This document shows, piece by piece, positions 42,343 through 45,947 of a stretch of DNA of 64,000 nucleotides. Under the pieces are notes generated by a model. That model ran no database searches and was not told the origin of the DNA. It saw only the letters and a program-made list of their open reading frames with translations. The DNA comes from Thermosipho japonicus. GTDB taxonomy: Bacteria; Thermotogota; Thermotogae; Thermotogales; Fervidobacteriaceae. The stretch spans positions 248,001 through 312,000 of the forward strand of contig NZ_JACHEX010000002.1 of NCBI RefSeq assembly GCF_014201655.1, read 5' to 3'. A program made the translations under genes and the position numbers. Position 1 is the stretch's first letter; each line of letters starts with the position of its first letter.

Positions 42343-43317
42343 ATGAAGAAAATATTCTTTCTGGTCATTTTATTTATCTCAACAATAACTTTATCTTTTT
42401 TATTTGATCCTTTAAATTATATAACAAAATCCAACATTGGTCTACAATTACAATTTTATAACAAAGGTGGTAAAATTTCCATATATAATCCCTTTGTTTA
42501 CAAAATTGTTTCATTTGATAGTTTTACCGATACTATGAGATTCCCTGAAATAGTAAAAGGACTTGCATATATCGAATCTGGTTTTAATATACATGCACTT
42601 TCTCATGTAGGAGCAATGGGTATAACTCAATTCAAAGCTGATGCCGCAATTGATTATGGAGTATTCAACGCATGGAATCCTCAGCAAGCACTCCTGGGTA
42701 CAGATAGGATGATAAGATACTATCATCAAAAATATAATGACATCTATAAAGTGTTAGCTATATACAATATAGGTGAATCAAATTACAAAAAAGGAAAATA
42801 TATAGAACAAGGCAACGCATATGCAAACAAAGTAATTGCTGCTTCAAGAAAGATAAGTAGAAAATCTTATTTGTACGATAGATACGTTTTATATTTGCAA
42901 GGAACACTCACAGAAAATTCCAGTCAAACTTACACTGCTTTTTCTTTTGGTGGCATTTTTGATTATTTAGGAATAGTTTATTTTGATATTTCTTCAACTA
43001 TTCATTTTAGAAAAGGTTATTTTCCAATTGAGTTGGGAACAAAATCTTACATTAGAATAAATCACTTCGATTCTTTTGTAATTGGATATAATTTGGGGTA
43101 TAATTTAAATTATGAAAATGAAATATCAATTGGCCCAATAATTGGATATTCTCATTTTAGACCTATAGGCGAAAGCTACGAAATATACTACGATTTTTCA
43201 AAAGGGTTTAGTTTAAGTAGCTTTTTTATTTCTGTTGGGTATGGAAATAAATATTGGAGGATAAACTTTGGATTTGAACCAGAGTTTGATAATTTATTTC
43301 TTAGTATAACAATATGA
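42343..43317 (+). CDS. SLT-type lytic transglycosylase with C-terminal beta domain
   Basis: A 324-residue secreted protein. ATG 42343 follows GGGAGGGAAG; an in-frame ATG at 42328 lies inside the promoter. Signal peptide KKIFFLVILFISTITLSF. Residues about 55-165 are a lysozyme-like transglycosylase: GLAYIESGFNIHALSHVGAM with the catalytic Glu (about 70), GITQFKADAAIDYG, and LAIYNIGESNYKKGK. It cuts peptidoglycan glycan strands. The final 130 residues are aromatic-rich amphipathic strands, perhaps an outer-membrane anchor. Located just before fliF, it might open the wall for flagellar assembly; this is inference. Confidence 0.85.
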   Translation: MKKIFFLVILFISTITLSFLFDPLNYITKSNIGLQLQFYNKGGKISIYNPFVYKIVSFDSFTDTMRFPEIVKGLAYIESGFNIHALSHVGAMGITQFKADAAIDYGVFNAWNPQQALLGTDRMIRYYHQKYNDIYKVLAIYNIGESNYKKGKYIEQGNAYANKVIAASRKISRKSYLYDRYVLYLQGTLTENSSQTYTAFSFGGIFDYLGIVYFDISSTIHFRKGYFPIELGTKSYIRINHFDSFVIGYNLGYNLNYENEISIGPIIGYSHFRPIGESYEIYYDFSKGFSLSSFFISVGYGNKYWRINFGFEPEFDNLFLSITI

Positions 43318-43327
43318 GGTGATGGGG

Positions 43328-44932
43328 TTGGAGTGGTTTAGAAAATTTTTAGATTCATTTTCTAAGTTTCCTGATTTTTGGAAAGGCTTAAAAAAGAATC
43401 AAAAAATTACTATGCTTTCACTTTTAGCAGCAATTTTAATTGCTATAGTTTTAACTGTTATATTAAATGCTCCAAAGTATGTTCTCTTAATCTCAGCCAA
43501 TAATGAAACAGATGCTGGAGCTATTATTCAGCAACTTGAATCACAAGGGATACCTTACAAAGTAGAAGCTGGAAATAGAATATTTATTCCATCATCTTAT
43601 AACGTATATGAAGTAAGAATGAAATTAGCATCTAGCGGAGCTTTAGGCTCTTCAACTAAAGGTTTTGAACTACTTGACCAAAGCAGTTTTGGTGCTACAA
43701 GCTTTGACAAACAAGTAAATTATCAGCGAGCATTACAAGGTGAATTAGAAAGAACAATTGCAACAATCAATGGAGTAAAATTTGCAAGGGTACACCTTAC
43801 TTTGCCAAAATATACATACTATGTTCGTGGTGAAATGGCAGAAACAAGAGCCTCTGTCCAGTTAGTGCTTGATCCAGGCGTTAGTCTTTCAAAAGAGCAA
43901 ATTAAGGGTATCATTTAACTTCTAACTGGAGCAGTAGAAGGTTTGAAACCAGAAAACGTTAAGGTTATCGACAACTATGGAAGGGCTCTAAGTGATTTAG
44001 TAAATTTCGATGATAATACAGTTTCAGCTTCAACAAAAGTCGAATTAAAAATGCAATTAGAAAGTTACTATAAAAAAAAGATTCAACCTGCACTTGAAAC
44101 AGTATTTGGTTTTGGTACAGTAGAAGTCATTCCAGATGTAAAATTGAACTGGCAAAAGGCAGAAAAAACAATAACAACATACAGCACACCAAAGGGTGGG
44201 CTTATCAGAAGTCAAGAAACCGAAAGTGAAAAAAGTACTACAGCTCCTGCAGACGGTGGCCCAGTTGGAACTGAATCAAATATACCAACTACATACTATC
44301 AAAGTGCTGAAGGATCAAACATTACTTTATATGAGAAAAATCATCAAATTACAAACTATGAACTAAATAAAATCGTTGAAAACATTGTTCAAAATAACGA
44401 AGGTGAGATAGAAAACATATCACTTTCCGTTATTATAGATTCTTCCTCAACAGTGTTTAATAAAATTTCAAAAGATGAAATAAATAAAATGGTTTCAGAT
44501 GTTATAGAAAAAAGCATAGCTGCAAATTCTAGTCCGTCCGCAATTTCATACTCTCTTGCATTCATTCCATTTAGCAGAGAAACAGAAGAAGAATTTTCAA
44601 AAATAATAGAGCAACAAACAAAACAAAAAGAGTTTCTTTACAAAGCAGGTCTCTTGCTAATAGCTACAATTCTTGTATTTTTTGGAACATATGGTTTTCT
44701 AATGCAATTAAAGAAAGTAAAAGCAAGAAAACTTGTCTTGCAAAGGTACAAAATGCTTGAAGAAGAAGTTCAAAAGGTTATGGAAGAAAAAACTAGCGAA
44801 GAAGCTGAAGAAATTCTTTCAGAAGCACAGAAAGTTATTGAAGAGCTTAGAGATTATGCAAAACAACTTGCAGTTAAGTCACCAGAAGAAGTAGCATCAA
44901 TAATAAAGATCTGGATTTCGGAAAGAGGGTGA
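43328..44932 (+). pseudogene. fliF: Flagellar M-ring protein FliF, interrupted by an in-frame TAA
   Basis: FliF forms the MS ring, the membrane base of the flagellum. Codons 1-196 (start TTG 43328 with GAGGTG 6 nt upstream) include a membrane helix (MLSLLAAILIAIVLTVI) and the ring domains ending LSKEQIKGII. TAA at 43916-43918 follows. The same frame then continues LLTGAVEGLKPENVKVIDNY to the true end at 44932, with the second membrane helix (AGLLLIATILVFFGTYGFL) and the C-terminal FliG-binding helix. Restored length is 534 residues, as expected, and both parts remain well conserved. The stop replaces a residue that is Tyr or His in FliF proteins I recall; TAT/TAC to TAA is one change. A TTG at 43943 could restart translation. 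Inactivation, readthrough and sequence error are all possible. Confidence 0.85.
43916..43918 (+). other. Premature TAA codon inside fliF
   Basis: The triplet lies in the context ATC ATT TAA CTT CTA, in frame with coding sequence on both sides. There is no frameshift or lost segment: flanking residues GII and LLTGAVEGL align directly with normal FliF. Confidence 0.9.
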
Positions 44933-44936
44933 ACAT

Positions 44937-45947
44937 ATGGCCGAGAAATCTAGTATACCTGGAAAAAGAAAAGCCGCTATTTTACTTGTTTTAATGGGGC
45001 CTGAAAATGCTGCAAATGTACTTAAAAATCTTGACGAATCAGATGTAGAACAGTTGACAATAGAAATTGCAAATTTAGGAAATGTTAAAGATGATGAAAA
45101 GCAAGAAGTTTTACAAGAATTTAAAGAACTATCAAAAGCTCGTGAAATGTTACTATCCGGTGGTATTGAATATGCAAAAGAAATGCTCATAAAGGCATTT
45201 GGTCCAGAAAGAGCAATGAAAGTAATAGAAAGACTTGTTTCTAACCTGCAAGTTAAACCATTTGAGTTTATGAGACTTGCAGATCCCATGCAAGTCGTTA
45301 ACTTTTTACAATCAGAACATCCCCAAACTATTGCTTTGGTATTAAGCTTTTTGGATCCACCGCTTGCTGCAAAAGTCTTATCTGCACTGCCAGAAAAAAT
45401 TCAAGCAGAAGTCGTTAAAAGAATTGCTCTGCTCGATAGAGCTTCACCTGATATTGTTAGAGAGATTGAAAAGAATCTTGAAAAGAAATTCAGCGGTCTT
45501 GGTGTCCAAACATTAAGTCAGGTTGGCGGTATAGATACTGCTGCTGAAATTATCAATAACATCGATAGAGCCACTGAAAAATCTATCATGGAAAAGCTTG
45601 GGTATGAATCTCCAGAACTTGCAGAAGAGATTAGGAGAAGACTATTTGTCTTTGAAGATCTTCTTAAACTTGATGATAGATCCATACAACTTGTTTTACG
45701 TGAAGTTGATACAAGAGACCTTGCCGTAGCACTAAAAGGTGCTTCTGAAGAACTAAAAGAAAAGATATTTAATAACATGTCAAAGAGGGCTGCTCAACTA
45801 TTAAAAGATGAATTAGAATTTATGGGACCAGTTCGTATTAAAGATGTTGAAGAAGCACAACAAAAAATTATTAATGTTGTAAGAAGACTTGAGGAAGCTG
45901 GAGAAATTGTTATCGCAAGAGGTGGAGGAGAAGAACTAATAGTTTAG
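44937..45947 (+). CDS. fliG: Flagellar motor switch protein FliG
   Basis: A 336-residue switch protein that sits on the MS ring and transmits torque. The N-terminal FliF-binding domain starts GKRKAAILLVLMGPENAANV. The middle domain has EHPQTIALVLSFLDPPLAAK, the EHPQT motif for FliM contact (about residue 123). The C-terminal torque domain holds FVFEDLLKLDDRSIQLVLRE (about 235-255) and ends DELEFMGPVRIKDVEEAQQK. All key parts are intact, in contrast to fliF 4 nt upstream. AGAGGGTGA precedes the ATG. Confidence 0.96.
   Translation: MAEKSSIPGKRKAAILLVLMGPENAANVLKNLDESDVEQLTIEIANLGNVKDDEKQEVLQEFKELSKAREMLLSGGIEYAKEMLIKAFGPERAMKVIERLVSNLQVKPFEFMRLADPMQVVNFLQSEHPQTIALVLSFLDPPLAAKVLSALPEKIQAEVVKRIALLDRASPDIVREIEKNLEKKFSGLGVQTLSQVGGIDTAAEIINNIDRATEKSIMEKLGYESPELAEEIRRRLFVFEDLLKLDDRSIQLVLREVDTRDLAVALKGASEELKEKIFNNMSKRAAQLLKDELEFMGPVRIKDVEEAQQKIINVVRRLEEAGEIVIARGGGEELIV

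Follow-up and report, generated by a model that had tools for sequence, protein, structure and literature searches.

The sole fliF gene in the sequenced genome of Thermosipho japonicus is interrupted by a single in-frame TAA codon. We consider it probable that a very recent nonsense mutation has knocked this gene out, in which case no MS ring, flagella or swimming would be expected of the strain. The stop is truly present in the sequence and has an ordinary explanation, either a nonsense mutation of recent date or, with lower probability, a base-call error.

A single-copy fliF interrupted at codon 197

The window analyzed here is a stretch of 64,000 nucleotides of contig NZ_JACHEX010000002.1 (positions 248,001 to 312,000), and all coordinates of T. 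japonicus fliF and its neighborhood refer to it. Counting codons from the TTG at 43328, the premature TAA is codon 197 of fliF (43916-43918); the frame then resumes with LLTGAVEGL and is otherwise open up to the TGA at 44930-44932, with 534 codons before this terminator. The initial annotation had described an in-frame stop at this codon, immediate resumption of the frame and a restored protein of 534 residues, all of which is borne out by the sequence and its translation. The ribosome site ahead of the TTG, GAGGTGAT, is predicted to form a duplex of -12.5 kcal/mol, as opposed to -1.5 kcal/mol for the GTG at 43319 (energies computed against the consensus 3' end of 16S rRNA, the anti-SD), and the same start is kept in the alignment of relatives from the same genus. 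The strength of this site, together with the conservation, argues that TTG 43328 is the correct start of fliF.

The match to the Pfam family YscJ_FliF (PF01514) spans the stop, covering positions 2-178 of 179 with one TAA inside (E = 5.6e-60). It is the only such match in the whole genome (1,917,137 bases in 9 contigs, 99.96% complete), and a second copy that could take over is therefore absent. Hydropathy indicates membrane helices at about residues 26-46 and 435-458; in FliF, two helices flank a large periplasmic part within one chain, whereas here the TAA places them on two separate pieces. The features of the locus are as follows:

43316..43323, + strand: GAGGTGAT, fliF ribosome-binding site (sequence; duplex energy; conserved in relatives)
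43328..44932, + strand: fliF, single copy, with one in-frame TAA (translation; PF01514)
43328..43915, + strand: 5' piece, residues 1-196, with the first membrane helix, RBM1 and part of RBM2 (hydropathy; alignment to solved FliF chains; domain order from PMC8092281)
43916..43918, + strand: premature TAA, codon 197; TAC (Tyr) in the nearest relative (sequence; alignment of relatives)
43919..44932, + strand: 3' piece, residues 198-534, with the end of RBM2, RBM3, the second helix (~435-458) and the cytoplasmic tail (hydropathy; Ka/Ks 0.051 against the nearest relative)
43943..43945, + strand: candidate restart TTG, judged weak (duplex -5.6 kcal/mol)
44937..45947, + strand: fliG, intact and under strong selection (TIGR00207, E = 5e-126; Ka/Ks 0.02)

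The proposed loss of function would start with a single base change converting a Tyr codon of the sole fliF to TAA. Translation would then end after residue 196, inside the ring-building domain RBM2, leaving a truncated FliF without RBM3, the second membrane helix and the FliG-binding tail, which we take to lie in the 3' piece. A protein lacking these parts should therefore fail to form the MS ring, and the strain would be without flagella and non-swimming, although the other flagellar genes examined are intact. Given that the pieces are fairly intact, they may still yield a partial product. Loss of flagella in the sequenced strain is nevertheless the most likely outcome.

The placement of residue 197 in D2/RBM2 comes from the alignment to Salmonella FliF and from published structures, which also provide the domain order and the topology (PMC8092281). 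Salmonella FliF, the MS-ring protein (6scn and related structures), is homologous to the T. japonicus protein over its whole length, including the position of codon 197 in RBM2, but is one intact chain, and deletion of fliF in Salmonella abolishes flagella and motility (PMC8092281). A close parallel to the proposed event comes from long cultures of Vibrio cholerae, in which single flagellar mutations arise, fliF included (PMC10654082). There, too, single-site mutants (nonsense in flhA, frameshift in fliF) have just one essential flagellar gene affected, by one lesion, in an otherwise intact regulon; their motility is lost, whereas in T. japonicus the loss is predicted from the genome. The cost of flagella in culture or in a recent habitat could explain the spread of the T. 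japonicus mutation, which was perhaps selected in culture. Our search of the literature on Thermosipho motility yielded nothing useful, and a Thermosipho comparative-genomics paper does not mention flagella.

Age of the stop and codon 197 in relatives

The nearest relative in our set, G001, is 96.6% identical to T. japonicus in the FliF protein and about 92% identical in the fliF DNA, and has TAC (Tyr) at codon 197; therefore, one base change on the T. japonicus branch explains the TAA. In the alignment of the three relatives from the same genus, the codon is TAC, TAC and TAT, all Tyr. The searches covered 60 relatives and then 103 genomes of the phylum Thermotogota, among which FliF was found in 79, and no stop interrupts the FliF domain in any of the 78 FliF-bearing genomes other than that of T. 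japonicus. All aligned relatives have a sense codon at this position, with TAA present only in the T. japonicus genome. A contig search with the 3' half of fliF returned no relatives, and a search with the alignment returned distant FliF proteins only, none from a named Thermosipho.

The residue itself is variable. The initial annotation gave the position as Tyr or His in relatives; Tyr holds within the genus, and in Salmonella FliF the residue aligned with 197 is a His directly after Val-Val, but within the rest of the family the equivalent residue is Ser or Ala, outside the family it is mostly Glu or Gln, and across Thermotogota Glu, Gln, Ser, Ala or Asn occur. Because so many different residues occur across the phylum, position 197 is a tolerant one.

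Comparison of fliF with that of G001 gives Ka/Ks of 0.048 overall, 0.039 before the stop and 0.051 after it. When changes in the 3' half were polarized with G002 and G003 as outgroups, omitting unpolarizable sites, the ratio of nonsynonymous to synonymous changes was 7/23 on the T. japonicus branch and 4/14 on the sister branch. Had selection been absent since the split, about 59-79 nonsynonymous changes would be expected per 23 synonymous ones, as opposed to the 7 observed; the 95% upper bound places the origin of the stop within the last 9-13% of the branch (roughly 10%). Neither the branch counts nor Ka/Ks show relaxed selection on the part downstream of the stop. These comparisons indicate that the fliF stop is very recent and that strong selection acted on the gene until very recently. 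The gene shows three features of a recent nonsense pseudogene, namely, little decay beyond the lesion (Ka/Ks 0.05, with the branch counts given above), no functional second copy (one PF01514 match) and relatives with a sense codon one base away (TAC, TAC, TAT). The earlier statement that both halves stay conserved is correct as to the sequence, with Ka/Ks of 0.04-0.05 on both sides, but they are conserved because the lesion is young, and the conservation is no evidence that the pieces work.

Alternative explanations of the stop

The initial annotation offered four explanations, a recent nonsense mutation, natural readthrough, restart of translation and a sequencing error, of which the first has the strongest support: the codon is a sense codon in relatives, selection was strong until very recently, and there is neither a suppressor tRNA nor a pattern indicative of readthrough. 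Readthrough or recoding of the TAA, yielding full-length FliF, would be compatible with the open frame on both sides of the codon and with the C that follows it, a context said to favor readthrough. This context carries little weight, given that TAAC ends 4 of 160 open reading frames (ORFs) in the stretches read, where TAA is the commonest terminator (84 of the 160). Among the 46 tRNA genes found, each of which was typed, no anticodon reads UAA, on which ground a suppressor tRNA was rejected; no other ORF among the 181 compared has an internal stop. A genuine readthrough gene would be expected to have a stop kept in relatives, accompanied by either a suppressor tRNA or a context that is likewise conserved, but this stop is unique to the T. 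japonicus genome, and the sense codon in all aligned relatives speaks against a conserved recoding site. Taken together, these observations make readthrough highly improbable.

Nearly as improbable is a two-piece FliF, in which translation would restart at the TTG at 43943, or at another start, and the pieces would assemble. The conservation of both halves and a GGAG located 10 bases ahead of this TTG would fit such an arrangement, but the conservation is older than the stop, and the ribosome site is weak: 13% of ordinary internal NTG codons equal or better the duplex energy of the TTG, and 16 of 18 predicted starts surpass it. Furthermore, the cut falls inside RBM2, and, judging from hydropathy and the published topology (PMC8092281), the second piece would lack the first helix to bring RBM3 across the membrane. 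Both readthrough and restart are accordingly unlikely by our reckoning.

A sequencing or consensus error, such that the strain really has a sense codon at 43916, is more plausible than either readthrough or restart, though still unlikely. One lone substitution in a gene otherwise free of decay and fully constrained on both halves is the very pattern that errors give. Substitution errors are rare in finished contigs, and the other 180 or so ORFs in the 194 kb compared show no internal stop; different fliF lesions in two of the four close relatives (see below) raise the prior for real loss.

The 194 kb are chosen stretches of the T. japonicus genome, including the flagellar operons found, and comparison with four relatives identified fliF as the only one of the 181 ORFs with an internal stop, in agreement with the earlier statement that the other flagellar genes are intact. 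The genes flhA, fliM/fliY, flgE/F/G and those for flagellin and flagellin-like proteins are open, and fliG and cheX, both in the window, evolve under strong constraint (Ka/Ks 0.02 and 0.013, respectively). These intact genes, along with the small age bound of the stop, largely refute an old flagellar decay of the lineage in which fliF would be one of many broken genes, an explanation that draws on the lack of any FliF, FlhA, FliM or FlgE/F/G family match in the four genomes of a sister genus and that we regard as very improbable. Further apparent disruptions (at 119 kb of contig C1 of T. japonicus, several antisense ORFs and a 104-codon ORF matching several frames) were disregarded; they resemble the products of misplaced starts or of spurious ORFs lying over RNA genes.

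fliF lesions and flagellar loss in the family

The Thermosipho-like, FliF-bearing group in our set consists of the T. japonicus genome (G000), G001, G002, G003 and G007 (n = 5), and fliF is disrupted in three of the five, by three different lesions. Kinship to G003 and a GC content of 30.9% agree with the placement of the window in a Thermosipho-like organism. In G003, a run of nine A residues (A9) near codon 22 (contig C1, about 502,000) leaves the initial 20 or so codons in a frame different from that of the rest; it may be a frameshift, a transcript slippage site or a sequencing error. In G007, one base is added after Leu-Pro-Lys, near codon 161 (C1:326453-326478). As in T. japonicus, each of these genomes has a single fliF lesion, and the other flagellar genes examined are open; unlike T. 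japonicus, the lesions are frameshifts rather than a nonsense codon and represent independent events. Both the A9 lesion and the added base are possibly sequencing errors. Phase variation through a homopolymer at codon 197 was considered and rejected: the T. japonicus lesion is a base substitution, and none of the other aligned relatives shares the A9 run found in G003.

Elsewhere in the phylum, one broken fliF was counted, in G089, an assembly that is 87% complete. There, the FliF domain lies over two frames (C11:232617-233140), probably owing to assembly indels. The contrast between 3/5 broken copies in the Thermosipho-like group and 1/71 elsewhere (Fisher p = 0.0006), or between 2/4 and 1/71 when T. 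japonicus, which prompted the look, is omitted (p = 0.006), is based on post hoc counts that exclude copies truncated at contig ends and on a less thorough search for lesions outside the Pfam domain in distant genomes.

Genus g4 of the same family (G006, G010, G012 and G014) yielded no matches to FliF, FlhA, FliM or FlgE/F/G. In G014, there is one flagellin match, on contig 57, perhaps a contaminant. The fliF lesions and the absence of these genes in g4 together fit a scenario in which the flagellum was lost more than once in the family. The lesions may have arisen in culture, by analogy with the single-gene mutations of V. cholerae (PMC10654082), or in nature.

Other broken genes were noticed in the stretches of the relatives that were read, none of them a recognizable flagellar gene (names assigned by eye). 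These include a frameshift in a gene for a 594-residue sugar epimerase-like protein of G001 (C2:210317-212058) that is intact in G000, G002 and G003; one in a phosphoesterase-like gene of G007 (C1:1844929-1846105; 396 residues in G003); and one in a G002 gene for a 305-residue protein (C22:194889-195802), which lies a few genes downstream of flhA and is intact in G000, G001 and G003. A flagellin gene of G001 is cut by the end of contig C3, and G002 yielded no full-length flagellin; both assemblies are probably broken by the repeated flagellin genes.

For the sequenced strain of T. japonicus, the predicted phenotype is the lack of flagella, and its genome would not represent the motile ancestor. 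The break in fliF is an ordinary kind of gene loss, to which the different fliF lesions in two of the four closest relatives add interest. With recent single lesions in three of the five species representatives and the other flagellar genes examined intact, fliF might be a target of repeated inactivation in Thermosipho, a proposal that we advance as speculative and more doubtful than not. Should it hold, it would suggest that the basal body is selected against, in culture or by phages or habitat, or else that the alleles can be reversibly switched on and off, and inactivation of fliF could be a first step towards the complete loss of the flagellum as in genus g4. If the repeated fliF lesions of this clade are real, the onset of flagellar loss in thermophiles would be directly observable, with fliF able to go first and the remainder of the regulon as yet intact.
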